Shown here one piece after another: positions 11,421-58,085 of a DNA stretch of 64,000 nt. Source of the DNA: Mollicutes bacterium (GTDB lineage Bacteria; Bacillota_I; Bacilli_A; Izemoplasmatales; Izemoplasmataceae); contig PWFC01000039.1 in assembly GCA_003554025.1 (NCBI GenBank), positions 62,001 to 126,000 of the forward strand. The letters are read 5' to 3'. The stretch's first letter is position 1. Every line of letters begins with the position of its first letter. The notes under the pieces were generated by a model. The model saw nothing but the letters and a program-made list of their open reading frames with translations, was not told the origin of the DNA and did no database searches. A program made the translations under genes and the position numbers.

Positions 11421-11586
11421 TCAAGAGGTTTTCACGCCGTTTCATAGGGAAGAAATCGGAAAACAATCGAGGAAATGTGCGTATTTGTTTCGAGATTTTC
11501 CAAACATGCGATATAATGTTTGTATATACGCTATTTTGTTTTCGCTTTCCAAATCCATAAATGACTGTTCATGAGGGGTAATTTGA

Positions 11587-14500
11587 ATGGGAAACTTGCC
11601 GGATAATCTGGACTTTTATTTGTATTTCAATTTGTTCTTCTTAGCGCTTATTGCGTTGAGCATGCTCTTCGGGTTTTTGCGGGGGCTTAGAAATTCGACG
11701 TGGGCGCTTGGCGTCAGGGTATTGTTTTATGTGCTGTTCTTCGTAACGTTGACGCCGATGGCGAACTTCCTTTGGAACGCAAATCTTGATTTTGCTTTGC
11801 GCGAGCTTTCGGGCGTCGTTCCGGAGATTTCCGGCGCGAGCAGTTTGAGCGAAGCCTTGCCGGCTTATTTGCAGGCGACGCTTGGAGACAATCTCGAATC
11901 CACGCTCACCAACCCCGAATTTGTGGCCTTTACCGAAGGGTTGGCGATTTTCGTCGTCAAAATTCTTTACTTCCTCTTATATTTTACGGTGTTCAAGATT
12001 CTCTACACCCTGATCTTTTTCATCGTTCGACTGCTGGTTTTGCCCAAACGTCGCAAGAAAAAAACGTGGGCCAACCGCGGTCTTGGCGCCGCAGTCGGCT
12101 TCGCCGGCGGGCTTGTCAGCGTGTATGTTTTCTTGATTTTCTTCGGCGGTGTGATGGACATTGCCGATTCCACCGTTTCAATCATCAATATGGGCGAAGA
12201 AGAGGCCCATGCATCGGATGTGCATACGCTTTCTGAAGAATCGCAGGATCCTTTGTTTGAGTTGGACGAAGACGTCGAGGAAATCGTTGCGGCCTTGAAC
12301 GATTTCGTGGATGGATACAATCGAAACCCTTTGGTGCAAGTCGCTTTTGACATCCGTGTCACCGACGACGCGATGGAAGACGATTTGGCGCTACATCTTT
12401 ATTTGTTCGACATGATTTATTCCTTCGAGTACCGGGAACAACAGATTTCTTTCCGCAAGGAACTTTCCATCGTGGCGGAAATCACCGGCATGGTGCTTGA
12501 AAACGATTATATGGAAACGAACGATTTCGCCGACGTTTCCGGCGACGACATCCGCGCCCTTTTCAACAAGCTCTCAAAATCCGACATGTTTACCGCGATT
12601 CTTCCTTTGGGTGTTGAAATTGGAGCGGATTTTTATGATGTGGAACTCTCCGAAGACGTCAAGGACGAACTCTACTCCATTGCTTGGGACGAGGAAATTT
12701 CCCAATTGGGGGCGATCGCCGCGTTGGCCTTCGACATCGTCTACCATGCAGGCGTGTTGGAAGACGACCCGGATTATGAAACCGTTGTGTTTGACGGGGA
12801 TGAAATCCGCGACCTTTTCGGACACCTCTCCGAATCCAAACTCGTCACGCTTTCGGCTTGGGTCGCCATCGAACCCGTTTTAGAGGCGGCCGGTGAAAAC
12901 GCGCAAGCCGTTGTGAGTGTCCCCGAAGGGCTCGAATGGGAAGACGAATTCAAGGCGCTTGGCGCGTTGATCGGCGAAATCGTCGATACGGGCGTAACCC
13001 TAGGCGAACTTCAAGACGGCGATTTGAACGTGCTTTTCCAAACGCTTTCGGGCATGGATACGACCGTGGCTTTGGATTCGCTGTTGATTTCGCATGCGCT
13101 CAAAAACATTCTCTCCGGCGAAGGTGACTTTGAGGCGTTGGACATCTTGATTGTGCATGATGAGATTACTTGGTTCGACGAACTGGACGACGATGGCGAA
13201 ACCATCCTTGAAAAAGGCGAACTCCGTTATTTGCTTTTGGCGGTGAACGAACTGATGCGCGTCGCAAGCGAATTCGATTTTGACGATTTCCGCGTGGAAG
13301 ACGCCCTAAACATCGACGAACAGGCTTTTGACGCCTTGATGGATTCCGACATCCTTGCCCACACCGCGGGCAATCAAATTATGGAACTAGGCGAAGACAT
13401 GCTGACGATTCCTTCCGTCGCCAAAGCGACCATTGCCGTAAACGCCGAAGACAAAGACATTGTCAACCGCGCCGAAATCCGCAAAATTTACGACGCGGTG
13501 ATGGCGCTTGATTTCGAAGATTTGGATTTCGATGAAATCGATACAATCATTTTGGAAAGCCTCGGAACGGAAGAAGACCCCACCGTGCTCGATGAAGAAA
13601 AAGCGAACACGCTTTTGGCTTCAGACATTTTGCACGCGACGCTTTCGACGACCATTTTGGATATGACCGAAGACGAGGAAGCCGAAGATTTCCTTACCGT
13701 TCCGCATTATGCCGAAGACGATCAGGAAGTTCGCTCGATGGACACCGAAGACGACATCGAATACATCAGCCGCGATGAGTTCATCAACCTTCTTCGCGCC
13801 GTACTGGCCTTGGATCTCGGCGATTTCGACCAAATCGACGCGATCGGATTGGACAAGATTACGGCGAACATCGACATCCTGCTTGATTCGGCCATTTTGC
13901 ACGCCACGGTATCAAAACAGCTCATCGACATGTCCGACGACCCCGAAGAAGACGTTCTTATCGTGCCGTATTTCACCCAGGATAACGCTCCGATCCGCTT
14001 CACGGTCGGCAGCGGCGAAAAATCGGTCGAATACATTTTGAAAGACGAACTCGTAAGCGTGGTTGAAGCGATCGACATCATCGGCGACTTTGACGATTTC
14101 GATGATTTCGACCCCGACATAAATCTTGAAAACCTTGAAGAAGAAGAAAACCGCGATGCTGTGCTTTCTTCTTCCATCTTGCAAGCGACCATCTCCAAAC
14201 AGCTTTTCGATTTGGACGAGGATGAAACCGTAGCCATTCCCTACTATCGCGAAACGTTTGACGAAACGGACCCGGACGACGAATCGCAATGGGTCCGCAA
14301 AAGAGTCGGCGACGCGGCTGAGGGCACCGATACCGAATACATCATGCGCGACGAACTCGACAACGTTTTGGTGGCGCTTATCGCGCTTGACATGCTGGAT
14401 TTCGAAGAGTTCGAAGGCGAGTTTGAACTAGAGCGTCTTGAAGAAGAGGACAACCGCAACGACGTTCTCGCCTCCGCCATCTTGCAAGCGACCATTTCCA

Positions 14501-17500
14501 AACAGCTGATCGATTTAGAAGACGAAGGCACCGTTGTGGTTCCTTATTTCACCGAGGACTTTGACTCTGCCGACCCCGACAATTTAGACCATAAAGTGCG
14601 CCTGACTGCCGGCGTTTCCACCGACGGAAATTTCGACGACGAAGACACGAGGTTCGAATACATCCTCGCCACCGAACTCGACGCCGTTTTGCTCGGCATG
14701 ATCGCTTTGGACCTTTTGGATGTCGACGCGTTTGACGGCGACGTCGATCTCGCCGAACTCTCCGACAACGAAAAGCGCGCCGATGTGCTTTCTTCTTCCG
14801 TGTTGCAAGCGACGATTTCCAATCAACTCTTTGAACAAGAAGAGGGCGTCGATTCCACCATCGTCGTGCCCTATCTGGCCGAAGACGATCTTACGCCCAT
14901 TCGCATCCGCGTCGGCGAGGCCATAGAGGAAACCGATTTCGAGTACGTTTCCAGAGCCGAACTCGATTCGATCATCCTAGCGATGATCGCCCTTGACATT
15001 ACCGATGTCGGCGAGTTCGATGGCGATGTGGACCTTGCCGAACTTTCCGACCCCGAAAAGCGCGCCGACGTGCTTTCCTCATCCGTGCTGCAAGCGACGA
15101 TGACCGACCAGCTCTTCGACCAAGAAACCGACGGCAATATCACCGTGCCTTATTACAACGAAGACTATGACGACGACCCCGACGATGATAACACCTGGTT
15201 GCGCAAGCCGATCGGTCTTGAAAACGACGCGCGTTTCGACGATGAGGACACCCGTTTCGAATACATACTGATCAACGAACTCGATTCGATCATTTTAGCG
15301 ATGATCGCCCTTGACATCACCGATGTCACCACGTTTGACGGGAATGTCGATTTGGGCTTGCTTGAAGATCCCGCCAAACGTGCCGACGTTCTCTCTTCGG
15401 CCATCCTTCAAGCCACCATCACCGACCAAATCTACGAACAAGAAACGCTTGGCAATTTGGTGGCCCCTTATTACCGGGAAACTTTTGACGGCGACCCCGA
15501 CGATGAAGGCACTTGGGTGCGCAAACCGATCGGCCTTGATACCGACGCGCGCTTCGACGATGAGGACACTCGCTTCGAATACATTTTACGCGGCGAAATC
15601 GACGCCATGATTCTTGCGATGATTGCGCTTGACATCACCGACATCGACACTTTCGACGGCGTCGTAGACCTCGGATTGCTTGACGATGAGAACCGTCGCG
15701 AAGACGTCTTGGCCTCCGCCGTATTGCAAGCGACAATCACCGACAAAATTCTCGAACAAGCCACTTTGGACAATTTGGAAGTCCCTTACTACAAAGAAAC
15801 CTACGACGGCGATCCTGACGACGAAGATACTTGGGTGCGCAAACCGATCGGTCTTGATGCCGATGCGCGCTTTGACGATGGCGACACCCGTTTCGAATAC
15901 GTGATCAAAGATGAGATCGACGCCATGATTCTCGCGATGCTCGCCCTTGACATTACCGATATTGACGCCTTCGACGGCGTGGTGGATTTGACGTTGCTTG
16001 AAGACGAAGGCCGTCGCGACGACGTGACCGCCTCGACCGTGTTGCAAGCGACCATCACCGATCAAATCCGCGAACAAGAGACGCTTGGAAACGTCACCGT
16101 TCCGTATTATCGCGAGACTTACGACGAAGACACTCCCACCGACGAAGACACTTGGGTCCGTAAAGACAGCGGCCTATCCGCCGATAGTCGTTTCGACGAT
16201 GCCGACACCCGCTTCGAGTTCATTTTGAGCGAAGAAATCGATTCCATCATTCTCGCGATGCTCGCGCTTGACATCACCGACATCGACGATTTTGCAGGCA
16301 CCGTCGCCTTTGAAAACCTCGACGATGCCACCAAGCGCTCACACGTCCTATCCTCGGCCATCATCCAAGCGACGATGACCGACCAACTTTTCGACCTTGA
16401 AACGGCGGGCGACATCGCCTTGCCGCATTACCGCGAAACCTACGACGAAACGGACCCCGACAATGAAGCCACCTGGGTCCGCAAGATCGTCGGCGATTCG
16501 GGAGCGGGCACAGAGTTTGAGTATGTGCTCAGCGAAGAACTCGACTTGATCATCCAATCGCTCATCGTTTTGGACATCGCCGACATCGAAGCCTTTGACG
16601 GCACGGTCGGATTCGCAAACCTCGAACTCGACGCCAACCGCGAAACGGTGCTTTCATCCGCGATGATTCAAGCGACGATGACCAAACAGCTTTTCGACCT
16701 TGAAAGCGGTGGAACCCTCGATGTGCCGCATTACGACCGCCACGATACGGACCTTGTCCGCAAGAGCGTCGGCGATTCCGGCGCGGGCACCGAGTTTGAA
16801 TACATCGTCGGCGAAGAACTCGATTACGTCATCGTTGCGATGATTACGCTTGAACTCACCGACATCGACGATTTCACCGGCACCATCTCCTTAAGCGTGC
16901 TCGACGATCCCGACCCCGCCACTTACGAAGACAACCGTCACGACGTCTTGAACTCGTCGATTCTCCACGCGACCATCTCCAAACAGCTTTTCGACCTTGA
17001 CGATGGCGGCGACATCGCCTTGCCGCACTATGAATCCTACCTCACGGAGCCGGCGAACATGATGGACATCGCCCTGCGCATCTATACGGGCGACACGCTA
17101 GAAGGCACCCATTATGAATACGTGGTCTTCGACGAACTCGACCAGTTGATTAAGGTGATGAACATTCTAGGCGTCAACGACGTTCAGGATTTCGACGGTT
17201 CCATCTCCCTTTCGGCCATTGTCGCGCAAGGCCAAGTCGACGACGTCCTCGCCTCGCACATCATCCATGCGACCATCAGCGAACAGCTCACCGATCTTGA
17301 CGGCCTCAACACCATTGAAGTGCCGCACCGCGAAGAGAACAACACGACCGTCATTCGCCGTTTGATCGGCCTAAGCGTCGACGACAACTTCGACGACATA
17401 GACACCCATTTCGAATACGTCCGCCGCAACGAGATTTCCGATATGATCTACGCCTTAGACATGCTCGGCATCGACGACATCCAGACGTACGACGGCGAAA

Positions 17501-18519
17501 TCTCGCTTTCCACACTCTTTGAAGACGAAGCCAACATCGACACCTTGCTTGAATCGGCCATCTTGCAAGCGACGCTCTCGCAAAAGATGTTCGACGACAC
17601 CGGCGGCTTGCTCATCATTCCGGATGAAAACGTCAACACCGGCCAGCCTGTGCGCATCGACACCGACGACCGCGACGACAATTTCGATTTCACTTATGTC
17701 GAAAGCGGCGAGATGCGATTCATCCTCTTAGCGCTCGACCAACTCGAACTCACCGACCTTGAAAACCTCAACTTTGAACCCGCCACCATCTTCAAAGCCG
17801 GCGAAGACGATTACGAGACCGTCCTCGATTCCGCTTCATTGCAAGCGACGATCTCCGACAACATCTTAGAATTCGCCACCGACGAGACCAGCGCGCCCGC
17901 ACTCAGCACGACCTTGATTGTGACGGATTACTTCCGCGAGGCCATCGCCATCGACGGCGCAGCCGACGAACACATTGAAAAAGAAGAGCTCCGCGCATTG
18001 CTCACGGCGCTTGAGACGCTCGACATCAATTCCTTCGAAGACGACCTCGACCCGACGGTCATTCAAGGCTTAGAAGACGCCGAACTCTACGAACTCTTAG
18101 AGAGCGGCTCCATCCACATCACCTTAGACGACATGCTTCAGGCCAACGACGACGTTGAGGAGAACATCCCCGATTACGGCGCCGGCGCAACCGCGCTGAA
18201 AGACGAGTACAACGAGACCGACATCCTGTTCAAAGACGAAATTGTGGCCTTCATCAACGCCGCGGACATTCTCGGAGGCGGCGCCGCGGACTTCACCAAC
18301 GTCACCCTCGATTACAACACCATCCTCAATCTCGACGAAACCGAACGCGAGATTGTGCTCGAATCGATGATCGTCCGCGAATTCATGACCGTACCGTTAG
18401 AAGGGGCTTACTTCAATGAAACCGGAAGCGCCATCGACGATGTACACTACATGAACGAAGACAGCGCCACCTTCCTCACGAAAGACGGCGCGCTTCACGC
18501 CATCGAAACGGTCGAATAA
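11587..18519 (+). CDS. Giant membrane-anchored acidic tandem-repeat protein with CvpA-like N-terminus
   Basis: 2310 residues. Residues 1-205 have four hydrophobic segments (about 10-30, 37-58, 120-157, 178-203) in a CvpA-like pattern, with FLRGLRN after helix 1 and a KRRKKK loop before helix 4. By the positive-inside rule those loops are cytoplasmic, which puts the long C-terminal part outside. From about residue 570 to the end there are about 17 tandem units of 89-108 residues, each with ELD..ILAMIALDITDIDxFDG, then VLSSAILQATITDQLF, then VPYY and a DPDDE-type acidic linker. Central units are the most alike; residues 210-570 hold decayed versions. ATG 11587 has GAGGGG nine bases upstream. 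No enzyme domain, sortase signal or second anchor. Function unknown: adhesion, surface layer or spacer are all possible. Confidence 0.85.
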   Translation: MGNLPDNLDFYLYFNLFFLALIALSMLFGFLRGLRNSTWALGVRVLFYVLFFVTLTPMANFLWNANLDFALRELSGVVPEISGASSLSEALPAYLQATLGDNLESTLTNPEFVAFTEGLAIFVVKILYFLLYFTVFKILYTLIFFIVRLLVLPKRRKKKTWANRGLGAAVGFAGGLVSVYVFLIFFGGVMDIADSTVSIINMGEEEAHASDVHTLSEESQDPLFELDEDVEEIVAALNDFVDGYNRNPLVQVAFDIRVTDDAMEDDLALHLYLFDMIYSFEYREQQISFRKELSIVAEITGMVLENDYMETNDFADVSGDDIRALFNKLSKSDMFTAILPLGVEIGADFYDVELSEDVKDELYSIAWDEEISQLGAIAALAFDIVYHAGVLEDDPDYETVVFDGDEIRDLFGHLSESKLVTLSAWVAIEPVLEAAGENAQAVVSVPEGLEWEDEFKALGALIGEIVDTGVTLGELQDGDLNVLFQTLSGMDTTVALDSLLISHALKNILSGEGDFEALDILIVHDEITWFDELDDDGETILEKGELRYLLLAVNELMRVASEFDFDDFRVEDALNIDEQAFDALMDSDILAHTAGNQIMELGEDMLTIPSVAKATIAVNAEDKDIVNRAEIRKIYDAVMALDFEDLDFDEIDTIILESLGTEEDPTVLDEEKANTLLASDILHATLSTTILDMTEDEEAEDFLTVPHYAEDDQEVRSMDTEDDIEYISRDEFINLLRAVLALDLGDFDQIDAIGLDKITANIDILLDSAILHATVSKQLIDMSDDPEEDVLIVPYFTQDNAPIRFTVGSGEKSVEYILKDELVSVVEAIDIIGDFDDFDDFDPDINLENLEEEENRDAVLSSSILQATISKQLFDLDEDETVAIPYYRETFDETDPDDESQWVRKRVGDAAEGTDTEYIMRDELDNVLVALIALDMLDFEEFEGEFELERLEEEDNRNDVLASAILQATISKQLIDLEDEGTVVVPYFTEDFDSADPDNLDHKVRLTAGVSTDGNFDDEDTRFEYILATELDAVLLGMIALDLLDVDAFDGDVDLAELSDNEKRADVLSSSVLQATISNQLFEQEEGVDSTIVVPYLAEDDLTPIRIRVGEAIEETDFEYVSRAELDSIILAMIALDITDVGEFDGDVDLAELSDPEKRADVLSSSVLQATMTDQLFDQETDGNITVPYYNEDYDDDPDDDNTWLRKPIGLENDARFDDEDTRFEYILINELDSIILAMIALDITDVTTFDGNVDLGLLEDPAKRADVLSSAILQATITDQIYEQETLGNLVAPYYRETFDGDPDDEGTWVRKPIGLDTDARFDDEDTRFEYILRGEIDAMILAMIALDITDIDTFDGVVDLGLLDDENRREDVLASAVLQATITDKILEQATLDNLEVPYYKETYDGDPDDEDTWVRKPIGLDADARFDDGDTRFEYVIKDEIDAMILAMLALDITDIDAFDGVVDLTLLEDEGRRDDVTASTVLQATITDQIREQETLGNVTVPYYRETYDEDTPTDEDTWVRKDSGLSADSRFDDADTRFEFILSEEIDSIILAMLALDITDIDDFAGTVAFENLDDATKRSHVLSSAIIQATMTDQLFDLETAGDIALPHYRETYDETDPDNEATWVRKIVGDSGAGTEFEYVLSEELDLIIQSLIVLDIADIEAFDGTVGFANLELDANRETVLSSAMIQATMTKQLFDLESGGTLDVPHYDRHDTDLVRKSVGDSGAGTEFEYIVGEELDYVIVAMITLELTDIDDFTGTISLSVLDDPDPATYEDNRHDVLNSSILHATISKQLFDLDDGGDIALPHYESYLTEPANMMDIALRIYTGDTLEGTHYEYVVFDELDQLIKVMNILGVNDVQDFDGSISLSAIVAQGQVDDVLASHIIHATISEQLTDLDGLNTIEVPHREENNTTVIRRLIGLSVDDNFDDIDTHFEYVRRNEISDMIYALDMLGIDDIQTYDGEISLSTLFEDEANIDTLLESAILQATLSQKMFDDTGGLLIIPDENVNTGQPVRIDTDDRDDNFDFTYVESGEMRFILLALDQLELTDLENLNFEPATIFKAGEDDYETVLDSASLQATISDNILEFATDETSAPALSTTLIVTDYFREAIAIDGAADEHIEKEELRALLTALETLDINSFEDDLDPTVIQGLEDAELYELLESGSIHITLDDMLQANDDVEENIPDYGAGATALKDEYNETDILFKDEIVAFINAADILGGGAADFTNVTLDYNTILNLDETEREIVLESMIVREFMTVPLEGAYFNETGSAIDDVHYMNEDSATFLTKDGALHAIETVE
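13220..18400 (+). repeat. In-gene tandem repeat array (about 17 units of 270-320 bp)
   Basis: The conserved ILQAT/ILHAT motif recurs at approximately 13345, 13624, 13891, 14175, 14478, 14801, 15085, 15400, 15721, 16040, 16357, 16660, 16958, 17256, 17553, 17832 and 18101. Spacing is 267-323 bases, always a multiple of three, so the frame is kept. Units between about 14.7 and 16.4 kb are nearly alike also at DNA level, which indicates recent unit duplication in the middle of the array. Confidence 0.85.
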
Positions 18520-18524
18520 CCTTC

Positions 18525-18558
18525 AAAAGGACGTCTGAATTAAAAGACGTCCTTTTTT
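18525..18558 (+). terminator. Intrinsic terminator after the giant gene
   Basis: 12-bp stem AAAAGGACGTCT / AGACGTCCTTTT with an 8-base loop and a T tract. Confidence 0.85.
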
Positions 18559-20975: not shown

Positions 20976-21148
20976 GGCCTCCACCTCTTTCATCGCTTTC
21001 TACCTACTATTATACGTTCTAAAAAGCTTGTATGCAACGCAATTGAACCGCAAGCGAAGATTTCTTGCTTTTCACTAGGCGAAGGCTCTATAATAAAAGC
21101 AACGTAGGACAATGGGGGATTCTGTTGAAAAAATTGAAAAGGACGCTT

Positions 21149-22942
21149 ATGAACGCGCGCAGCGCAATGAGCGTCAAAACGCACAAAAAGCCGCGATTGT
21201 TCATCATTTTGACGATGCTTATGATCAATGTGCTGATTTTGGTGGTAGCGGCATTGATCGCCATGGCCATCGACGACAGCTTTTCCGGCTTCATCGACGC
21301 TTTTGCGCACGGCAGCGTTTTGTGGCTTTTGACGCCCAACGCCATCTTAGAACTCGAACAGCCTTCTACCTTGTTTTTGGCCGTCGCTGTTCTGATTACG
21401 GGTTTGGTGCTTTTTACGGGGACAATCATCGCCCTAGCCACCAACGCGCTCAAGGATTATTTCGACCGCAAGCGGACCACTTCGGGAAAAGTGTACTTGC
21501 AAAAGCATATTCTGATTCTCAACTGGAACAGCAAGGTGCCCGAACTGGTCGCCGATTTGCAGCATATCAAAAGCCGCAATGTGAAAGTCCTCATCCTTGC
21601 GGAAGTGGACAAGCGCCTAGCGGAGCAGGCGCTTCGAAACTCTTTGAAAAAAAGCGGTAAGAAAGACGAACTCAAAAGCCTTGACGTTTTGGTCAAAAGC
21701 GGCAATCCCTTGTCGAAGATTGAACTCCTTGAAAGCAGCATCGATACATGCGAGACCGTCATCGTCATGAACAAAAAAGTTGACGAAGTCGAGACCGAAA
21801 GACTCGGGAAAAGCGATTTGAACATCATCAAGATTCTTCTGAGCATCGGCCATCTCGGTCTATCCCGCGAGATTCCCATAGTAGCGGAAGTGAAAGACAT
21901 CGAAACGAAAGAAAAAGTCCGCACCATCAACCAATCCGTCGCCTCCCTGAAAAGTTATCGTTTGATTCCGATATGTTTTGACCGAAGGCTCGGTCAAATC
22001 ATGGCGCAAACGATCATTCAAAAAGACATAGAGGATGTATACCTAGAGCTGTTTTCCTTTTCCGGCTCGGAAATTTACCCGCTTGACGGCGTTTCTTTTG
22101 AAGATTGCATGCGATTCCATACACACGCCATTCCCATTGAGGCCATGCAAGATTATCTCTACGTCCTCGCTTCGAGCAACGCCGAAAAAAACCATCGCGA
22201 CGAACGCTTGTCCTTAAAAAAAGAAACCGTCAAAACCAATCCTTTTCACCTTAAAGTGGTGAGAGACGTCTACATCATCGGCGACAACAACAAAAGACAA
22301 TTCATCGAAGAAGCGTTTGCGGCCTATGAACGTTTGCACGGAAGTTCTTTTCAGGCGACTTGGTGGGACGAAGACGACCTTGATGGACTGTTGCGCGAAG
22401 TCGACGCGAAGGAAAAACCGGCGACACTTTTGCTTTTAAGCGAAGAAACCGAAGAGGAAGAAAAACTTGACGCAAACGTCATCAACAACCTGCTCTACAT
22501 TGAGACGCACCTAAAGCGAAACGATGTGCGCGTCATCGTCGAACTCCTTGACCCGAAAAACGATCCGCTCATCAAAGATTTCGACATTGAAAACACCATC
22601 ATCAGCAACAAAATCATCTCGCTTCTTCTAAGCAAACTCGCCTTGCATCCGCGGAGCGAACAGTTCTACGAGGACCTTTTGAGCATCGAACCCTATGAAT
22701 CCGGAAAAGACGAAGAAAGCCTTCATATCGAAAGCGCCGAAGCGGCGTTTGATGAGAGCTTTCCCTATCGCTTTGCAAGCGTCAAGTCCATGGTGCACGC
22801 CTTTTACGAAGCGTATGAGGAAAAGGCCGTGCTGATCGGCACCATTAAAGGCGACAACGTTTCCCTTTTTGGCGGCGATATGACGAAAACGCCCTTCACT
22901 CTCCAAGCTTCCGACAAACTGATATTTCTTAAATTCCAGTGA
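21149..22942 (+). CDS. CASTOR/POLLUX-like ion channel with RCK-type domains
   Basis: About 597 residues. Two hydrophobic N-terminal segments (IILTMLMINVLILVVAALIAM and LFLAVAVLITGLVLFTGTII) flank a pore-loop-like stretch; then a long cytoplasmic part with Rossmann-type RCK repeats, beginning KHILILNWNSKVPELVADL. This matches the bacterial relatives of the plant CASTOR/POLLUX channels, probably conducting K+ or Ca2+ under ligand control. TATAAT lies at 21089-21094. Start is uncertain: ATG 21149 has AAGGA five bases upstream, and TTG 21125 has GGGGGA upstream and adds eight basic residues. Confidence 0.65.
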   Translation: MNARSAMSVKTHKKPRLFIILTMLMINVLILVVAALIAMAIDDSFSGFIDAFAHGSVLWLLTPNAILELEQPSTLFLAVAVLITGLVLFTGTIIALATNALKDYFDRKRTTSGKVYLQKHILILNWNSKVPELVADLQHIKSRNVKVLILAEVDKRLAEQALRNSLKKSGKKDELKSLDVLVKSGNPLSKIELLESSIDTCETVIVMNKKVDEVETERLGKSDLNIIKILLSIGHLGLSREIPIVAEVKDIETKEKVRTINQSVASLKSYRLIPICFDRRLGQIMAQTIIQKDIEDVYLELFSFSGSEIYPLDGVSFEDCMRFHTHAIPIEAMQDYLYVLASSNAEKNHRDERLSLKKETVKTNPFHLKVVRDVYIIGDNNKRQFIEEAFAAYERLHGSSFQATWWDEDDLDGLLREVDAKEKPATLLLLSEETEEEEKLDANVINNLLYIETHLKRNDVRVIVELLDPKNDPLIKDFDIENTIISNKIISLLLSKLALHPRSEQFYEDLLSIEPYESGKDEESLHIESAEAAFDESFPYRFASVKSMVHAFYEAYEEKAVLIGTIKGDNVSLFGGDMTKTPFTLQASDKLIFLKFQ

Positions 22943-23066: not shown

Positions 23067-23600
23067 ATGTTGATTATGATTGGGGCAAGCGCGAGCGGGA
23101 AAACCGAAATCGCGAAAATACTCATCCGACAATACGGCTTTCAAAAAATGGTAACCTACACAACGCGTCCGAAACGTATGGAAGAAGAAGACGGTGTTGA
23201 TTACCATTTTTTAACGGAAGGCGAATTCCTGCAAAAACGCGCAAAGGACGAATTTGTCGAAACCGCCACCTACAACGGCCATTACTATGGGACGGCATTC
23301 AGTGAAATCCGCGCCGACCGCGTGCTGATTGTCGACCCGAAAGGCGCGAACGCGATTCATGAGAAAATCAATGGTAAAGCGGTGTTTTTCTTGCTTGAGA
23401 CGCCGAAATCCATCCGCGCGAAAAGAATGATCGCCCGCGGAGATTCGCTTGACGACATTGAGAAGCGTTTGGAAACCGACGACGTGCATTTCAACCGCTA
23501 CAACCTTCAACACATCGATTGCGTGGTCGAAACCGGCTACAAAGAACTTGAAGAACTTGCCGAAGAAATCCACGACCTTTACGAAAATCGCCGGCGCTAA
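23067..23600 (+). CDS. Guanylate kinase-like nucleotide kinase
   Basis: 177 residues with P-loop GASASGKTE at residues 6-14, the GMP-binding TYTTRPKR and GVDYHF motifs, and a C-terminal helix region. This is the guanylate kinase fold (GMP + ATP to GDP + ADP). It is slightly shorter and more divergent than typical Gmk (usually 190-205), so it may be a paralog beside a normal gmk elsewhere. ATG 23067 has GAGGTGG upstream. Confidence 0.75.
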   Translation: MLIMIGASASGKTEIAKILIRQYGFQKMVTYTTRPKRMEEEDGVDYHFLTEGEFLQKRAKDEFVETATYNGHYYGTAFSEIRADRVLIVDPKGANAIHEKINGKAVFFLLETPKSIRAKRMIARGDSLDDIEKRLETDDVHFNRYNLQHIDCVVETGYKELEELAEEIHDLYENRRR

Positions 23601-26093: not shown

Positions 26094-26669
26094 ATGATTG
26101 AGGGCATCATTTTGGCCGGCGGGTATTCAAGCCGGGCTAAAAACAACAAGATGGCCTTTGAACTTGATGGGATGCCATTGATTCTTCATACCGCAAAATC
26201 CATGTCGCCGCATGTATCGCGCATCGTGATTGTCGGCGGCCATCATTATGAAGACATTGTCCGAATTTTCGATGGAATGGATCGTTGCAAGGTGGTGTAC
26301 AACCCCGATTACGACAAAGGCATGTTCTCATCCGTTCAAAAGGGCATGGAGAACACCACCGGCGACGTGTTTATCGTCCCGGGCGACATCCCCTTGATCA
26401 AACCTTCGACCTACACCGCCCTAAAAGAAGCAAAAGGAAACGTTCGCGTGCCTTCTTACAAAGGCAAAAAGGGCCATCCTCTTTTCCTCGCTCAATCGCT
26501 GCGAAAGCCGTTGTTGAAACGCGGGAAAGACGACAATCTCAAGGCGTTTCGAGACAGTTACCCATTAACGGTTGTGGATACTGAGGACGAAGGAATTCTC
26601 CTCGACGTCGACACCACAAGCGATTACGAAAAAATTAGAAATGATTTTGAAAGGGGCACAAGCGTGTGA
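26094..26669 (+). CDS. mocA: MocA-like molybdenum cofactor nucleotidyltransferase
   Basis: 191 residues of the NTP-transferase (MobA/MocA) fold: N-terminal ILAGGYSSRAKNNKM (a variant of the LAGGxSxRxGxxK nucleotide site, with Ala-Lys where Gly is usual), GDIPLI metal site and KGHPLFL. MocA makes the cytosine-dinucleotide form of the Mo cofactor used by xanthine dehydrogenase-type enzymes. First gene of the ~20-kb purine block and overlaps the next gene by four bases, supporting a role in maturing the hydroxylases encoded here. GAGGTGGGGG precedes the ATG. Confidence 0.85.
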   Translation: MIEGIILAGGYSSRAKNNKMAFELDGMPLILHTAKSMSPHVSRIVIVGGHHYEDIVRIFDGMDRCKVVYNPDYDKGMFSSVQKGMENTTGDVFIVPGDIPLIKPSTYTALKEAKGNVRVPSYKGKKGHPLFLAQSLRKPLLKRGKDDNLKAFRDSYPLTVVDTEDEGILLDVDTTSDYEKIRNDFERGTSV

Positions 26670-27469
26670 AAATCAGCAACTATCACAAGGCAAATTCGCT
26701 TCAAGACGCTTACGAAGTCTTGACCGAAAGCCGCAACCACGCCATCATCGCAGGCGGAGGCTGGCTCAAACTTTCAAGCCGTACCGTCGAGAAGGCCGTC
26801 GATTTGAGCGATTTGCCGCTCGATTACGTCAACGAAACCGAAAATGCGGTAGAAATCGGCAGCATGACACCGCTGCAAAAGATTGTTGAAAGCGAAAGCG
26901 TAAAGAGCCTTTGCAAAGGCATGCTCACGCAAGCCGTGGCGCAAATCATGGGCGTTTCGCTTCGCAATCTTGTCACCATCGGAGGCAGCGTTGTGGGGAA
27001 ATTCGGTTTTTCCGATGTTTTGACACCCTTGCTCGCCATGGAGGCGAAACTGGTGTTTTACAAACAGGGAGAAATCACTTTGACCGAGTTCATGGCTCAA
27101 AGAGGACGAACGGACGACGTTTTGGAAAAAATCGTTCTTCCCAAAACAAAAGGGACCGGATATTTCAAAAAAGTCGCCAAAACGCCGCTTGATTTTTCTA
27201 TTTTGAATCTAGCGGTTGCGGTGAGCGACGGCCATTACAAGATTGTGGTCGGTTCGCGTCCGAGTGTTGCGACCTTGTGCGAAGAAGCGATGGACTACGT
27301 CAACGGGAAAAAGACCTTGAGCGACGACGATGTCGAAAAAGCCGCAACGCTCGTTTGTGAGAACGTGAAGTTCGGCCAAAACCCCAGAGCTTCCGAGGAA
27401 TACCGGAAGGAACTCGCCTACGTCTACACCAAACGCGGCTTGAAAGAGGTGAGAGATTGTGAAAGTTAA
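26666..27469 (+). CDS. Molybdenum hydroxylase FAD subunit, set 1
   Basis: 267 residues of the CoxM/XdhB FAD-binding family: IAGGGWLKL near residue 29 and LVTIGGSVVGKFGFSD near 107 for FAD contacts, then a C-terminal CO-dehydrogenase flavoprotein domain. Both glycine motifs differ from the usual AGGTDL and GNxxxxSPAAD seen in the set 2 protein. GTG start overlaps the mocA stop. It would pass electrons from the 2Fe-2S subunit to NAD+ or another acceptor. Confidence 0.85.
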   Translation: MKISNYHKANSLQDAYEVLTESRNHAIIAGGGWLKLSSRTVEKAVDLSDLPLDYVNETENAVEIGSMTPLQKIVESESVKSLCKGMLTQAVAQIMGVSLRNLVTIGGSVVGKFGFSDVLTPLLAMEAKLVFYKQGEITLTEFMAQRGRTDDVLEKIVLPKTKGTGYFKKVAKTPLDFSILNLAVAVSDGHYKIVVGSRPSVATLCEEAMDYVNGKKTLSDDDVEKAATLVCENVKFGQNPRASEEYRKELAYVYTKRGLKEVRDCES

Positions 27470-27914
27470 CACCACCATCAACGGCATGAAACGCATTTTG
27501 GATGTGAAACCCGACGAATACTTGCTTGATACGCTCCGGCGTCACAACTACCTAAGCGTCCGCCGTGGTTGCGACACGACTAGTTGCGGCGTATGCACCA
27601 TACTGATCGACGATAAGCCCGTTCCATCCTGTGCGTTTTTGAGCGTGCGCGCCGAAGGGAAACGCATCACCACCGTTGAAGGCATTCCCAAAGAAGCGGA
27701 AAAGCTCAGCGAACACTTTGGCGCCACCGGCGCCGATCAATGCGGGTTTTGCAATCCGGGCATCGCTTTGAGCGTATACGCTCTTAAAAAAAGCCAAAAG
27801 AAAGTCACGGCCGAAACCCTGAAACACTATCTGACCGGTCACCTGTGTCGCTGCACGGGCTATCAGTCGCAACACAAGGCCATAAAAGAATATTTGGGTG
27901 ATTCGAATGAGTAA
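27459..27914 (+). CDS. Molybdenum hydroxylase 2Fe-2S subunit, set 1
   Basis: 151 residues with the eight expected cysteines: plant-ferredoxin-type cluster (GCDTTSCGVC, then a single Cys) and the helical second cluster (CGFCNPG and CRCTGY). It carries electrons from the Mo site to FAD. GTG start overlaps the FAD subunit gene by 11 bases. The stretch before the first cluster is short and lacks one Gly-rich element present in set 2 (CGEGECGAC). Confidence 0.92.
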   Translation: MKVNTTINGMKRILDVKPDEYLLDTLRRHNYLSVRRGCDTTSCGVCTILIDDKPVPSCAFLSVRAEGKRITTVEGIPKEAEKLSEHFGATGADQCGFCNPGIALSVYALKKSQKKVTAETLKHYLTGHLCRCTGYQSQHKAIKEYLGDSNE

Positions 27915-30231
27915 AAACTACAAAACGGTCAACGTGAAAACCCCGTCCATCGACGGCAAAGGCATCATGATGGGTCGCCCCGCCTACACCGAAGACCTTG
28001 CCCCTAAGGACGCATTGGTCATCAAAGTGTTGAGAAGTCCGCACGCTTTTGCGAAGATTGAGTCGATCGACACGCAAAAAGCGTCCGAACTGCCGGGCGT
28101 TGAAATCGTTCTTACACACAAGGATTTTAAGCGCAACGCCTACACCCGCGCCGGACAAGGATATCCGGAGCCTTCTCCGCACGACAAGTTCCCCCTAGAC
28201 AATTATGTCCGCTATGTCGGAGACGAAGTCGCCGCCGTTGCGGCCGTTGACGAAGAGACGGCGCTTGAGGCGCTTGACCTCATCGAAGTCGAATACAAAA
28301 AGCTCACGCCCGTCTTGGATTTTGAGAAGGCGAAAGAAAACGAATCGATCATTCATCCCGAAGAGGACATCTATGAGATGTTCCCCATCGGTTTCGACCC
28401 GAAGAAAAACGTCGCGGCCGCCTATTCTATGGAAGTTGGCGACGTTGAGAAAACCTTAAAAGAAAGCGACGTGGTGGTTGAAGATTCCTTCTACACCCAA
28501 GCGCAGGCGCATGTGATGTTAGAACCGCACACCGTGAACGCGCAAATCGACTATCAAGACCGCCTCGTGCTTTATTCCGCCACGCAAACGCCCTTTCACG
28601 TGCGTAGAATTCTCTCGCAAACGCTCGAGATTCCCCTAAGCAAAATCCGGGTCATCAAACCGCGTGTCGGCGGAGGATTTGGCGGCAAGCAGGCCCTTCA
28701 TGGCGAAATGCTCGCCGCGGCCGTAACCAAAAGAACCGGCAAACCTTCAAAACTGACTTATACGCGCAAAGAAGTTTTCGAGTCTTCCTGCACCCGCCAT
28801 CCGATGCGTATCGATATGAAAATCGGCGCCACGAAGGATGGGAAAATCACCGGAATAGACTGTTACGGGCTTTCCGACACCGGCGCGTACGGCGAACACG
28901 CCTTGACCGTATTTATGGTTACCGGTTCGAAAGTGTTGCCCCTTTACAACAAAGTCGATTCTGTCCGCTTTCACGGCGACGTCGTCTACACCAACACGGT
29001 CTCCTCGGGCGCTTACCGCGGATACGGCGCCATTCAAGGCAATTACGCTCTTGAATCCATCGTCGACATGCTTGCCGAAAAGCTAAACATGGACCCGATG
29101 GAACTACGGCAGAAGAACATGATTTTAGAAAACGAGACTTCGCCGATTTTCGAGATTATGGGCGAAGGCACCGAGGGCACCGCGATGAACATGGACAGCT
29201 GCAAGCTCGATTACTGCGTCAAGCGCGGCATGGAGCTCATCGACTATAAAAACAAATACCCGCGCCGAAAAACCGACGGCGCCAAAGTGCGCAGCATCGG
29301 CGGCGCCATCGCCATGCAAGGAAGCGGCATTCCCTACATCGACATGGGGGCCGCCATCATCAAACTAAACGACGACGGTTTTTACAACTTGATGGTCGGC
29401 GCGACCGAAATTGGCCAAGGCAGCGACACCATCCTCGCTCAGATCGCGGCCGAACAACTCGGCGTCGACGTGTCGAAAGTCGTCGTATACTCTTCCGACA
29501 CCGACCTCACGCCCTTTGATCCGGGCGCCTACGCTTCAAGCACCACCTACGTTTCGGGCAACGCCGTCCTCAAAGCCGCAAAGGAAATGCGCTCGATGGT
29601 TGTCAAAGAGGCGGCGCGTTCGCTTGAAGTCGACATCGACGACATCGAGTTCGACGGCACGACGTTTCGCGTCAAGAACCAAGAGGACACCCTCAGCCTT
29701 TCGGACCTCTCAAACCGTCTTTACTACAACGAAGACCAAAAACAGCTTGTGGCAACGGGCAGTTATTACGGCACGAAATCGCCGCCGCCTTTCATGGCCG
29801 GCTTCGTCGAAGTCGAAGTGGACCTTGAAACCGGCGAATACGACATTCTCGAATACGTAAGCGTCGTCGACTGCGGCACCACAATCAATCCCGAACTTGC
29901 CCGCGGCCAGGTTGAAGGCGGCATCGTGCAAGGCCTCGGCATGGCCGTCACCGAAGACGTTCATTACGCCAAAAACGGCAAACTGATTTCAAGCGACATG
30001 CTCAATTACAAAATCCCGACGAACCTCACCCTCAAGAAGTTGACGACCGAATTCGCCGACAGCTATGAAGAAAGCGGACCCTACGGCGCGAAATCGGTCG
30101 GCGAAATCGGCATCGACACCCCGCCCGCGGCGATCGCCAACGCGGTCTATAACGCCACCGGCGTGCGCATCAAGACTCTACCGGTCACACCCGAGAAAAT
30201 ACTAAAAGGATTAAAAGAAAAGGAGATTTAA
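27907..30231 (+). CDS. Molybdenum hydroxylase Mo-binding subunit, set 1
   Basis: 774 residues. Mo-pterin motifs: VGGGFGGKQ (residues ~255-262), GAYRGYGAIQ, EIGQGSDT, and GAKSVGE with the catalytic Glu. Aligned with mammalian xanthine oxidase (numbering from memory), the Glu802 position is Gln262 and the Arg880 position is a Gly (residue 340), both conserved in set 2. So set 1 probably acts on a different substrate: another purine, a pathway intermediate, or an aldehyde/N-heterocycle. ATG 27907 is chosen over GTG 27898 by the GGGTGAT site and family start; it overlaps the upstream gene. Confidence 0.88.
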   Translation: MSKNYKTVNVKTPSIDGKGIMMGRPAYTEDLAPKDALVIKVLRSPHAFAKIESIDTQKASELPGVEIVLTHKDFKRNAYTRAGQGYPEPSPHDKFPLDNYVRYVGDEVAAVAAVDEETALEALDLIEVEYKKLTPVLDFEKAKENESIIHPEEDIYEMFPIGFDPKKNVAAAYSMEVGDVEKTLKESDVVVEDSFYTQAQAHVMLEPHTVNAQIDYQDRLVLYSATQTPFHVRRILSQTLEIPLSKIRVIKPRVGGGFGGKQALHGEMLAAAVTKRTGKPSKLTYTRKEVFESSCTRHPMRIDMKIGATKDGKITGIDCYGLSDTGAYGEHALTVFMVTGSKVLPLYNKVDSVRFHGDVVYTNTVSSGAYRGYGAIQGNYALESIVDMLAEKLNMDPMELRQKNMILENETSPIFEIMGEGTEGTAMNMDSCKLDYCVKRGMELIDYKNKYPRRKTDGAKVRSIGGAIAMQGSGIPYIDMGAAIIKLNDDGFYNLMVGATEIGQGSDTILAQIAAEQLGVDVSKVVVYSSDTDLTPFDPGAYASSTTYVSGNAVLKAAKEMRSMVVKEAARSLEVDIDDIEFDGTTFRVKNQEDTLSLSDLSNRLYYNEDQKQLVATGSYYGTKSPPPFMAGFVEVEVDLETGEYDILEYVSVVDCGTTINPELARGQVEGGIVQGLGMAVTEDVHYAKNGKLISSDMLNYKIPTNLTLKKLTTEFADSYEESGPYGAKSVGEIGIDTPPAAIANAVYNATGVRIKTLPVTPEKILKGLKEKEI

Positions 30232-30234
30232 ACC

Positions 30235-30864
30235 ATGAACAAAAAACTCGCATTGTTGAGCACCATCGTCTTTTTCGGCGCCCTTTGGGGCGTGCTTGAA
30301 GCCACACTAGGCTATGTTTTGCATTTGATTCCCGTTCCTTTTTTGGCCGGAAGCATCATGTTCCCCTTAGCGACTCTTGTCCTGCTTTACGCATACAAGC
30401 ACACGCAATCTAGGAAAGCGCTCTTGGCCGTAGGTGTCATCGCGGCTTCCATCAAAGCGCTCAATTTCTTCATGCCCATGAACCACTGGGGCATCATCAA
30501 TCCGATGATTTCCATCGTGCTCGAGTCGCTCATGGTCGTTGCGCTCGCAAACTTTTTGGTCTCAAGAAACCTCAAGAAGCAAGCGCTTGGTTTCCTCACC
30601 GCATCGGTGGCCTGGCGCGGCGCATACCTTGTTTGGTTCGCCGTGCAGTTCGCGGCCACCGGATTCCTCGCCGAGCAAATCGGCTCTTTTGGCAACGTGT
30701 TGACGTTTGCCGTGTTCCAAGGGCTTTTCAGCGGCGCTTTGGCGTTTGCGCTTTATAAAGGTTTCGAGCTCCTTGAGACACGCAGCGCCTTAAGCCTTCG
30801 CATCCATCCCTTAGGCGCGACCTTCATGCTGACACTTGCCACCGTTTTGACCGTTATATTGTAA
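30235..30864 (+). CDS. Polytopic membrane protein, candidate purine-pathway transporter component
   Basis: 209 residues with six hydrophobic segments and little between them. GALWGVLEATLGYVLH at the N-terminus is the most conserved-looking part. The size and helix number resemble ECF-transporter substrate-binding (S) proteins, but I do not recognise a family. It sits three bases after the set 1 Mo subunit and is the only integral membrane protein in the purine block, so it is the only visible candidate for import or export of a substrate. AGGAG precedes the ATG. Confidence 0.6.
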   Translation: MNKKLALLSTIVFFGALWGVLEATLGYVLHLIPVPFLAGSIMFPLATLVLLYAYKHTQSRKALLAVGVIAASIKALNFFMPMNHWGIINPMISIVLESLMVVALANFLVSRNLKKQALGFLTASVAWRGAYLVWFAVQFAATGFLAEQIGSFGNVLTFAVFQGLFSGALAFALYKGFELLETRSALSLRIHPLGATFMLTLATVLTVIL

Positions 30865-30871
30865 AACCGAT

Positions 30872-30909
30872 GGCCAAAGTGTGCTTTATGTATGCTTTGG
30901 CCTAATTTT
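30872..30909 (+). terminator. Internal hairpin in the purine block (possible attenuator)
   Basis: GGCCAAAG (30872-30879) pairs with CTTTGGCC (30895-30902); inner bases extend the stem with wobble pairs to about 13 bp. TAATTTTTAGG follows. It lies in one of the few real gaps of the block and may lower expression of downstream genes. Confidence 0.45.
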
Positions 30910-30927
30910 TAGGAAGCAGAAAGTTGG

Positions 30928-31794
30928 ATGACAATGGAAGACGAAACTCTCTACGAACGGTTACTCCGTTATAAAAAAGAAGGCAAAGACGCCGTGTTGG
31001 TCACGGCGGTCGAGAAAAAGGGCGAAGGTCCGGTCGCCATCGGCATCAAGATGCTCGTGAGCGAAGACGACGAAGCGATCGGCACCGTCGGCGGCGGCGC
31101 GCTTGAATACCACGCCCGCGAACGGTGCAAGGACATCATCAAGAAGCGGGAAAGCAAACTTGAACGCTATTTGCTCAACGAAGAGAAAATCGAAGTCGAC
31201 AACCGTTCCGACATGACGACCCTGCCGATGAAATGCGGCGGCGTCGTGACCCTTTTTTACGAATTCATCGGCGTCAAAAACCATATTTATCTTTTCGGCG
31301 CCGGGCATGTCTCAAAGGCCTTGGGACACGTCTTGGACACCATGGATTTTCACCTGACCGTCATCGACGACCGGAAAGAAGTCTTAGACGTTTACCCTTA
31401 CGGCAACAGGCTTGTCGAAAAGCCGTTTGTGCAATTCATCGAAGAAGAAGGCATTAAAGACGGCAGTTTCGTGGTCGTTTGCACGCCGAAACACGCCAAC
31501 GATTACCACGTCATCAACAAAATCCTAGAACTTGGTCTCTCGCCCAAATACATGGGCATGCTTTGTTCGTCGGCCAAATTGAAGGATTATTTGAAAAAGA
31601 CGTACGACACCTTCGGCGAAGACGTCGATTTGAGCAATTTCTACGCGCCGATCGGCCTCGATACGGGCGGAGGAAGCCCCGAAGAGATCGCCGTTTCGAT
31701 CAGCTCCGAAATCCTAGCCGTCTCGCACGGAAAAAAAGGCCATCTTCACATGAGGGAAACCGAAAATGGTTCACATCGTTACTGGGAAGATTAA
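30928..31794 (+). CDS. XdhC/CoxI-family molybdenum hydroxylase maturation protein
   Basis: 288 residues. N-terminal domain with TVGGGALE and MKCGGVV; then a Rossmann domain with LFGAGHVSKAL (~residue 122); then GLDTGGGSPEEIAVSISSEI at the C-terminus. XdhC proteins bind the Mo cofactor, promote its sulfuration and insert it in xanthine dehydrogenase. Lies between two hydroxylase sets and can serve both. No strong ribosome binding site: AGGA is 13 bases before ATG 30928, and ATG 30934 is an alternative. Confidence 0.88.
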   Translation: MTMEDETLYERLLRYKKEGKDAVLVTAVEKKGEGPVAIGIKMLVSEDDEAIGTVGGGALEYHARERCKDIIKKRESKLERYLLNEEKIEVDNRSDMTTLPMKCGGVVTLFYEFIGVKNHIYLFGAGHVSKALGHVLDTMDFHLTVIDDRKEVLDVYPYGNRLVEKPFVQFIEEEGIKDGSFVVVCTPKHANDYHVINKILELGLSPKYMGMLCSSAKLKDYLKKTYDTFGEDVDLSNFYAPIGLDTGGGSPEEIAVSISSEILAVSHGKKGHLHMRETENGSHRYWED

Positions 31795-32257
31795 CGACCG
31801 CAAAACCACCCGCATGATCGCGCTTTACGAGCGCCTCGGCGGCGATGGGTTCGTGTCGTTAAAGACCATGAAAAACGACACCGTCCACAGCTACACCGCC
31901 CAACGTCTTTCGACCGGCGAACAAAGACTTTTGATCATCCGGGATGCCTACATGCCCGAAGATTTCAACAGCAAAGAAAACATCGGACCCTACCATTTCG
32001 AGAAAAACTGTGTCGAATGGATCGAATCGACGTTGAAGACGCTCGTTGAAGAGCGAGTCGAACCGCTCTTTTTGGACGAAGTCGGAATTTTGGAAATGCA
32101 CGACCAAGGATTCGCCAACACGGTGAAGGCCATGGTCGATTCCGGACTCGATGTGTGTTTTGCGGTACGTGAAACGTTGCTTCCGGACTTCTTGAAACAA
32201 TACGCCATCACCGATTATCGCCTCATTGAGGAGGAAAACGATGGATTTAGCCATTAA
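31766..32257 (+). CDS. THEP1-like P-loop NTPase with altered Walker A
   Basis: 163 residues. VTGKINDRKTT at the N-terminus takes the place of a P-loop (Arg where GxxxxGK[T/S] has its second Gly) and LFLDEVGILEM is a good Walker B, as in the THEP1/NTPase_1 family of nucleoside triphosphatases. Overlaps the XdhC gene by 29 bases and the next gene by 17, so it belongs to the operon. Small NTPases of this type occur in hydroxylase gene clusters, but their task is not established; a role in cofactor insertion is a guess. Confidence 0.6.
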   Translation: MVHIVTGKINDRKTTRMIALYERLGGDGFVSLKTMKNDTVHSYTAQRLSTGEQRLLIIRDAYMPEDFNSKENIGPYHFEKNCVEWIESTLKTLVEERVEPLFLDEVGILEMHDQGFANTVKAMVDSGLDVCFAVRETLLPDFLKQYAITDYRLIEEENDGFSH

Positions 32258-33548
32258 AAACGGCGACGTGTTTCTAAAAGGCGCCTTTCAGAAGACAAAC
32301 GTCTACGTCAAAGACGGGCGCATCGCCGAAATCACCGATCAAAACCTTGACGCCGAAGAAACATACGACGCTAAGGGCGCCATGGTATTGCCGGGTCTCA
32401 TCGACCCGCATGTCCATTTCGCCTTAGATTTGGGCGCGTTCGTTTCGGTCGACGATTTTTCCGCAGGTTCGAAAGCCGCCGCTTACGGCGGCGTCACGAC
32501 GTTTATCGATTTTTTAGACCCCGTCGACAACGCCGACGATTTGAAACGCGCGTTTGAAACGCGCTTGAAGGAAGCAAAAACGTCTCATCTCGACTACGCC
32601 TTTCACGCCACAATCAAAAATCCGAAAGGCGACCTTGAAACGTTTGTGCAAACGATGAAGGATTTGGGCATTCCCACGCTCAAATTTTTCACAACCTATT
32701 CCGAATCGAACAGGCGCACCTACGACAAAGACATCAAAGAACTTCTCCGACTTTCAAAAAAACACAACATCACGTTGCTCGCGCATATTGAAAACGACGA
32801 CATGATCACCATAAAGGACGAATACACCCACGAGGATTTGCCCAAGAGCCGTCCTTCAAACAGCGAAACCACAGAAGCTTTGAAACTCGCAGGTTTCGTA
32901 GAAGAAACGAACGGCACGCTCTACATGGTGCACCTAAGCAGCGGCGAAACCCTGCGGGCTCTCAAAAAGCATTATCCGCATCTTTTGAACAAGCGCTTCA
33001 TCGTCGAAAGCTGTCCGCAATATTTTGCTTTCAACGACGCTTCGCTTCGTGGCGAAAAAGGCAAACTCTTTACCTTCGCTCCGCCTTTGCGCAGCGAAGC
33101 AGACCGCAAAGCGCTTTGGGACCATTTTGACGATGTCCACACCATCGGCACCGACCATTGCGCCTTCATGAAAGCGGACAAACAAGCCTCCTCGCTAAAA
33201 GACATGCCTCTTGGCATTGGCGGCGTCGAACACTCGTTTTCCATTTTATATCGCCATTTCAAGAATTCGCTCATCGAAAAAATGAGCCTGAACAACGCCC
33301 GTGTGCATCATCTAACGCCGCGCAAAGGCGATATCGCGGTAGGCGCCGACGCCGATTTGGCAATCTTCGAAGCGAAAGACACCATAATTAAGAACAACCA
33401 CGCCGCTTCCGATTATTCGGTGTATGAAGGCCAACCTGCGGGCGCCGTTTTAAAGGCCACCATCGCCCGGGGTGCGTTCATTGTCAAAGACGGTGCGTTT
33501 TACCCCCAAAAAGGACACTTTCTCAAAAGGAGTGAAAGAAATGCCTAA
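32241..33548 (+). CDS. hydA: Dihydropyrimidinase/hydantoinase-family cyclic amidohydrolase
   Basis: 435 residues of the binuclear-zinc hydantoinase family: His57/His59 in DPHVHF, the carboxylated Lys148 in PTLKFFTTY, then His in LLAHIEND and MVHLSS, and Asp in GTDHC. It opens cyclic ureides (dihydropyrimidines, hydantoins, possibly a reduced purine ring product). In described anaerobic purine clusters the partner is HyuA/HydA. ATG 32241 has GAGGAGG upstream and starts inside the previous gene. Confidence 0.88.
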   Translation: MDLAIKNGDVFLKGAFQKTNVYVKDGRIAEITDQNLDAEETYDAKGAMVLPGLIDPHVHFALDLGAFVSVDDFSAGSKAAAYGGVTTFIDFLDPVDNADDLKRAFETRLKEAKTSHLDYAFHATIKNPKGDLETFVQTMKDLGIPTLKFFTTYSESNRRTYDKDIKELLRLSKKHNITLLAHIENDDMITIKDEYTHEDLPKSRPSNSETTEALKLAGFVEETNGTLYMVHLSSGETLRALKKHYPHLLNKRFIVESCPQYFAFNDASLRGEKGKLFTFAPPLRSEADRKALWDHFDDVHTIGTDHCAFMKADKQASSLKDMPLGIGGVEHSFSILYRHFKNSLIEKMSLNNARVHHLTPRKGDIAVGADADLAIFEAKDTIIKNNHAASDYSVYEGQPAGAVLKATIARGAFIVKDGAFYPQKGHFLKRSERNA

Positions 33549-35930: not shown

Positions 35931-35935
35931 TTGCG

Positions 35936-39346: not shown

Positions 39347-39364
39347 CAAAAGAAGGTGGAATGC

Positions 39365-58038: not shown

Positions 58039-58085
58039 TGAGTAAAACTTAACATCGAGGCGTATGATATATGCGAGGTGATGAA

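Follow-up and report, generated by a model that had tools for sequence, protein, structure and literature searches.

We found that one gene of the window, by which we mean the whole 64,000-nucleotide stretch of DNA that was analysed, encodes a giant protein composed of a CvpA-like four-helix membrane head and a long array of acidic repeat units, estimated at about 21. With a probability of roughly 45%, the protein is an acidic solenoid that is held by its CvpA-like head and serves as a coat or spacer on the surface. The giant is not unique to one genome, and relatives occur throughout the order Izemoplasmatales and beyond.

The giant repeat-protein gene (11587..18519, + strand) was present as a single open frame of 2310 codons (2310 aa). 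A sigma-70-like promoter, TCGAGA-16-TATAAT, was located at 11490..11517 (+) with 10 of 12 consensus matches and is a consensus match only, promoter-grade sites numbering 7 in the region and 4.5 ± 2.5 in shuffles. A putative intrinsic terminator (AAAGGACGTC-loop-GACGTCCTTTTTT; 18525..18558, +) was spotted as a hairpin by eye and was absent from the list of the scanner, its loop being longer than the scanner's limit. With a promoter-like site and a terminator hairpin, the gene is therefore probably a single-gene unit. The GC3 of the gene was 0.67, compared with 0.58–0.68 for nine other window genes, while residues 206-2310 contained 25% D+E and 5% K+R, compared with 6–15% D+E for the same nine genes, and the cysteine count of the 2310-aa protein was 0.

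The C-terminus of the protein is FLTKDGALHAIETVE, and a conserved C-terminal motif, YMNEDSATFLT, was located at 18448..18480 (+). Among 35 C-termini of families f1, f3 and f10, 26 had the pattern [FT][LF]T in their final 25 residues, compared with 3.2% of 2000 internal windows; with a less strict pattern, the figures were 33/35 and 7.2%, respectively. A half-unit cap at the C-terminus was considered and rejected, the junction profile matching 0/47 C-termini and 17/470 shuffled ones. Neither a trypsin family nor an SLH or S-layer family was detected in the protein by Pfam, and no separate tip or binding domain was detected by Pfam or NCBIfam. When the giant was tested as a sortase-anchored wall protein, no LPxTG end was found, nor any match to the PBP transpeptidase family PF00905 in its own genome (G000). 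The genes upstream in the window's genus (PsuG, PfkB, MATE, NUDIX) provided no functional hint.

Elsewhere in the window, a candidate purine-catabolism cluster was located at 26094-41074 (+), which agrees with the diet of nucleic acids that PMC10470597 reports for the order. It includes a MocA-like protein, an XdhC-like factor, an SsnA-like aminohydrolase, a dihydroorotate-dehydrogenase-like protein, an adenine deaminase and two xanthine dehydrogenase-type molybdenum subunits (27898-30231 and 35927-38035), of which only the adenine deaminase was assigned above its cut-off. Also on the + strand, we observed a 625-aa protein at 21065-22942 with weak RCK and Castor/Pollux-like matches only, below cut-off, a guanylate-kinase-like protein of 177 aa at 23067-23600 (95.5 bits against the guanylate kinase cut-off of 160), and a 607-aa frame at 58071-59894 having no NCBIfam match at 1e-20.

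The repeats were evident in the central array as a TRF period of 318 bp (score 931) and in the protein as autocorrelation peaks at lag 106 and then 212. A first unit profile, made from ten central seed units of the window protein (93–107 aa each), identified 18 units over residues 543-2268, of which 13 had E values from 2e-20 to 6e-47; u1, u2, u3 and u17 were weaker (7e-12 to 3e-5) and u18 reached only 0.009. Since 38 of 200 ectodomain shuffles gave some match at <=0.05 (no more than 2 in any shuffle, the best at 5e-4), u18 was within noise on this profile. Using the iterated family profile, all 18 units were found at E <= 1.6e-11, namely u1-u6 (residues 543-1121; 13213..14949, +) at E <= 1.6e-14 each, u7-u10 (residues 1123-1546; 14953..16224, +), a turnover zone with adjacent units 75–76% identical, and u11-u18 (residues 1548-2267; 16228..18387, +) at E 1.6e-11 to 2e-26. 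Three diverged membrane-proximal units, n1-n3 (residues 286-541; 12442..13209, +), were connected by a profile-profile chain (n1-n2 Prob 99, n2-n3 97, n3-unit 96.6, n1-n3 81), while n1 and n2 compared directly with the unit profile gave a non-significant Prob of 4.6 and 2.2, respectively. The total would thus be about 21, i.e. 18 plus the three diverged units; the array seen in the earlier note stands, but its count of about 17 does not.

The most conserved residues of the unit profile are P67 (90%), S44 (87%) and E4 (79%), giving the core E4...S44...P67. Calcium-binding loops were considered and set aside, the profile having no strongly conserved acidic loop position (best D19, 42%). The unit was earlier said to match no known family, and this was borne out: for the whole protein, Pfam gave only GSH_synthase (E 0.018, below cut-off, over a 29-residue stretch), NCBIfam gave 0 families, and PDB sequences gave no match. 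A literature search of titles and abstract starts, with subscription papers outside its scope, revealed no such protein by name, and the word CvpA is absent from the main texts of PMC8397711, PMC10868615, PMC7761423, PMC10470597, PMC8289736 and PMC7301438, which deal with these groups.

The structure of u8-u10 (residues 1228-1546) was modelled by AlphaFold with pLDDT 87.4 and pTM 0.87, the mean pLDDT of the five models ranging from 74 to 87. The alignment used had 13 rows, all from the window protein and its sister, after two of 15 rows that were out of register had been omitted. Each modelled unit has an initial helix, short helices and one helix of 16 residues, together with short strands close to where units meet, and the main helices occupy the same places in all three units. 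The model was compared with the PDB by Foldseek (best E 1.7), with viral structure models (best E 0.52) and by VIA-align (0/217 chains at Z>=2). Given no match in the PDB or the viral models, a new fold is a possibility for the modelled unit.

The repeats had been described as most similar in the centre and decayed at both ends, a sign of continuing expansion. The similarity gradient is real, u7-u10 being 65–76% alike within the protein, and expansion in the centre was supported when the units were compared with the sister genome and genus relatives. The decayed ends proved largely wrong, since end units keep their position and identity and are common to relatives. Three further genomes of the genus have a unit 1 that is 56–64% identical to that of the window protein, and their units 1-3 pair with u1-u3. 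In L025, which belongs to another genus, the counterparts of u1-u3 are units 2-4, and those of u16-u17 are the third- and second-to-last units, at 52% identity; in L026, from a further genus, the pairing persists at the C-terminal end, but unit 4 is the best match of u1, u2 and u3 alike. The central u7-u10 reached only 34–50% against the best units of the other genus genomes or L025, and the best matches of central units were within their own protein or the sister. Each of u1-u6 and u11-u18 has a single counterpart in the sister genome, u11-u18 being 77–91% identical to sister units S3-S10, while u7-u10 have no clean one-to-one match in the sister array, which lies on two contigs with a gap between them. 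Judged from these alignments, length appears to change by gain or loss of central units, and the membrane-proximal and C-terminal units appear largely fixed. In the L038 and L036 arrays the unit spacing alternates over much of the array, between about 90 and 108 residues and about 92 and 101 residues, respectively, and unit pairs may have been duplicated together there.

The dN/dS against the sister was 0.05 for the head, which is the slowest segment (87% identity), and 0.09–0.21 for the ectodomain, with dS near saturation for much of the gene; five nearby metabolic or transport genes gave 0.06–0.19, and a sixth, NUDIX, was saturated. All parts of the giant gene are thus under purifying selection, and the values do not show the pattern expected of a fast-changing recognition surface.

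These results bear on one of the two main alternatives to the coat, the rather unlikely reading that the giant is an adhesin, whose long stalk would present a surface through which the cell attaches to particles of sediment, to extracellular DNA complexes or to other cells. The long stalk, the variable unit number and the predicted outside placement would suit an adhesin, and the closest relative with a name carries the isolate name B1Sed10, which suggests sediment. On the other side, there is no recognisable binding or tip domain, the C-terminal units are among the conserved ones, relaxed or diversifying selection was found in no segment, and DNA as well as most surfaces of minerals or cells should be repelled by a polyanion. 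The role in cell-cell contact that the earlier note had raised gained no direct support.

The whole protein was matched in 23 of 41 close genomes, its own included. At the class level, the head was matched in 73/296 genomes at E<=0.001, with 29 in the window's order and 44 outside it. The matches were mostly on long frames, and 36 of the 44 genomes outside the order had an open frame of at least 1000 aa; the other head matches there were on shorter frames, some with an internal stop or possibly cut or false. Twenty class-level loci were chosen (19 of the 44 outside the order and one of family f2), and in 16 of them the family profile detected at least three units; the ectodomains of these 20 relatives had 15–21% D+E and 4–10% K+R. 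In L089-L092, CvpA-like heads are carried on giant acidic proteins of 1670–4800 aa without a unit-profile match, and their ectodomain may be a further diverged or a different repeat; the 4800-aa protein had no Pfam match at 0.01. In a phylum-level draw, a profile of 47 heads matched 64/295 genomes at E<=1e-5, the matches listed being all within the class.

Complete proteins of the order (n=25) had 5–29 units. Listed by family, complete proteins had 8–22 units in f1 (n=10), 5–29 in f3 (n=15) and 9–23 in f10 (n=4). The protein of genome G085 has 20 units in 2342 aa, and the two of G028 have 26 and 6 units in 2941 and 955 aa, respectively. Tandem pairs of a long and a short copy were seen in 10/13 f3 loci, which are all those with enough downstream sequence. 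The short CvpA-headed paralogue is found directly downstream of the long one in L028, L029, L031, L033, L034, L036, L038 and L104-L106, and has 4–10 units, four of the ten copies being cut at the stretch or contig end. The giant had no match in G009, G011, G013 and G015, four near-complete genomes of its own family, indicating that it is not essential.

The head occupies residues 1-205 (11587..12201, +) and was recognized by hydropathy, loop charges and profile homology. Strongly hydrophobic stretches within residues 8-200 are compatible with four helices. The linker after the fourth helix (residues 192-285; 12160..12441, +) terminates in the stretch LYLFDxxxSFxYxxxxIxxRxEL, which by eye seems conserved in the alignment of the order. 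The window head reached 16.4 bits (E 0.0092) against PF02674, under the gathering score of 29.3 bits, and the genome-level search with PF02674 gave no match in its own genome G000. Among 47 heads, 31 matched PF02674 at E<=0.1 (best 1.1e-9), and a 1176-aa relative reaches 30.3 bits with pieces joined. By hhalign, the 47-head profile matched eight CvpA proteins of the same order (about 245–260 aa) at Prob 95 and E 3.9e-8 over 182 columns, with clean controls (MATE 0.06, chromate transporter 0.34), while the 27 heads of the order alone gave only Prob 82 over 104 columns. G29, G33 and G167 are invariant across the 47 heads. Since the window head is below the cut-off yet the 47-head profile matches CvpA, we regard the head as CvpA-like, a remote CvpA homologue on profile grounds rather than a strict PF02674 member, and the CvpA-like assignment of the earlier note is supported. 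Against PDB sequences the 47-head alignment gave only an adrenergic receptor chain (E 0.05), which was taken as chance. A structure of the head and first units, predicted from a two-sequence alignment, had pLDDT 35 and was unusable.

Another kind of CvpA fusion was observed in G011, G013, G015, G016 and G021 (L046, L050, L052), on frames of 776–821 aa with PF02674 over the cut-off at the N-terminus; the following ~500 residues had no Pfam match in the two proteins scanned, both of which are incomplete.

In family f3, a gene for a trypsin-like lipoprotein adjoins the giant gene in divergent orientation at 81–228 bp in all 12 loci with upstream flank (nine genera, 12 genomes); a thirteenth locus, L033, starts inside the gene. 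One of these neighbours was scanned and matched Trypsin_2 at E 9e-20, and the remaining ones were assigned by similarity. The lipobox pattern was found in 11/12 and the Asp and Ser motifs in 12/12, while the His pattern was missed in four, three of which read TNYHV by eye. The genes beyond the protease vary between loci. Similar proteases were present in 40 of 41 close genomes, with three in the window's own genome, and in the examined flanks outside f3 no protease was found beside the giant. The head of MarP is taken by us to be PF02674. According to PMC4992679, MarP joins a four-helix head to a trypsin-like protease and its C-terminal domain is in the periplasm, and because of this joining the f3 neighbourhood is suggestive of a link between protease and giant.

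As the other main alternative, the function might reside in the head itself, which would be an exporter or channel-like module with the ectodomain serving as sensor, filter or scaffold of a partner such as the lipoprotein protease, although we consider this improbable. In its favour, the head is the segment changing most slowly towards the sister and recurs across the class, export of deoxycholate was proposed for CvpA of EHEC (PMC6705877), and MarP provides the precedent of a four-helix head with a protease (PMC4992679). A plain membrane anchor would likewise evolve slowly, however, and a transporter should need neither giant length nor a strict unit pattern.

The outside placement of the repeats, as in the coat or spacer reading, is predicted from loop charges and precedent. 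Loops 31-38 (K+R 2, D+E 0) and 150-166 (K+R 7, D+E 0) are positive, while loop 63-112 (K+R 1, D+E 7) and residues 193-2310 (K+R 112, D+E 531) are negative, so that the repeats would be outside by the positive-inside rule. The charges fit an N-out, repeats-out topology, and the four helices with inside-positive loops before a ~2100-residue acidic domain, as noticed earlier, agree with hydropathy and loop charges; the exterior position of that domain, also claimed earlier, follows as a prediction of the charge rule. That the repeats are instead an internal acidic scaffold in the cytoplasm is very improbable: the outside placement is a prediction, but the two short loops are positive and the long one is negative, MarP of like layout has a periplasmic C-terminal domain (PMC4992679), and the f3 neighbour looks exported by its lipobox. 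An assembly artefact, with a false array length or a false head-repeat fusion, can practically be dismissed, for although contig breaks interrupt the array in several relatives, the sister included, the longest exact repeat of 26 nt and the contig of 155,871 bases make assembly collapse unlikely, the like architecture is present in the single-contig genomes G028, G032 and G085, and sister units pair one to one across most of the array.

The PBP transpeptidase family PF00905 was matched in 133/296 class genomes and in none of the 39 genomes of the window's order, and the ectodomain would therefore be in direct contact with the membrane. This agrees with the wall-less state that PMC10868615 and PMC8397711 report for Izemoplasmatales, though one genome of the order is reported in PMC7761423 to have most peptidoglycan genes. 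A PBP transpeptidase was present in 25 of the 73 head-matching class genomes, and the protein is thus not confined to wall-less cells. The table of head against transpeptidase (25, 48, 108, 115) gave a Fisher p of 0.04 with kinship ignored; this association with a missing transpeptidase is weak, and we do not claim the coat as a replacement of the wall.

Under the coat or spacer reading, the CvpA-like head would anchor the protein in the membrane of wall-less Izemoplasmatales, and about 21 helix-rich units of ~100 residues would stack outside the cell, past the three modelled ones, as a long, stiff and strongly negative solenoid. Such a polyanionic layer would keep neighbours, particles or large molecules away from the naked membrane and may hold cations. 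Its length would be set by gain and loss of central units, with the units at the membrane and at the C-terminus largely fixed. In f3, the giant is probably trimmed or shed by the surface serine protease of the divergent gene, or else serves that protease as a scaffold.

The way in which free-living bacteria without a wall shield and order their surface is an open question, and the giant is probably part of such a surface. It is a conserved and uncatalogued protein by which the poorly understood CvpA domain gains a plausible role in anchoring large outer domains, and its repeat unit is a possible new repeat fold. We also put forward, as a doubtful extension, that the unit is a new fold and that CvpA-headed acidic solenoids are an unrecognised envelope layer in many lineages of the class, one that predated and outlasted wall loss and whose length would depend on central turnover and, in one family, also on a dedicated protease at the surface.

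Large bacterial repeat surface proteins include wall-anchored adhesins and RTX and Ig-like stalks. The giant shares with them a long chain of similar domains, acidity and a variable copy number, and differs from them by having no Pfam repeat, a helical unit (in the model), no LPxTG end and an N-terminal membrane anchor. Wall-less bacteria have S-layer and lipoprotein coats, and like these the giant would cover a naked membrane; in contrast to them, it has no SLH or S-layer match, is held by a four-helix anchor rather than a lipid, and consists of a single repeat chain. With MarP (Rv3671c) it shares a four-helix N-terminal head followed by a further domain, which is extracytoplasmic in MarP and predicted by the charge rule to be outside in the giant, whereas in MarP the protease is in the same chain and in f3 only in a neighbouring gene, and MarP, judged from the 397-aa relative in PMC4992679, has no room for such repeats. 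With CvpA (PF02674) the head shares four helices and, in the alignment, the G-x-x-[RK]-G and x-x-G-x-x-x-G stretches, but ordinary CvpA proteins stop shortly past the helices, whereas the giant adds ~2100 residues.
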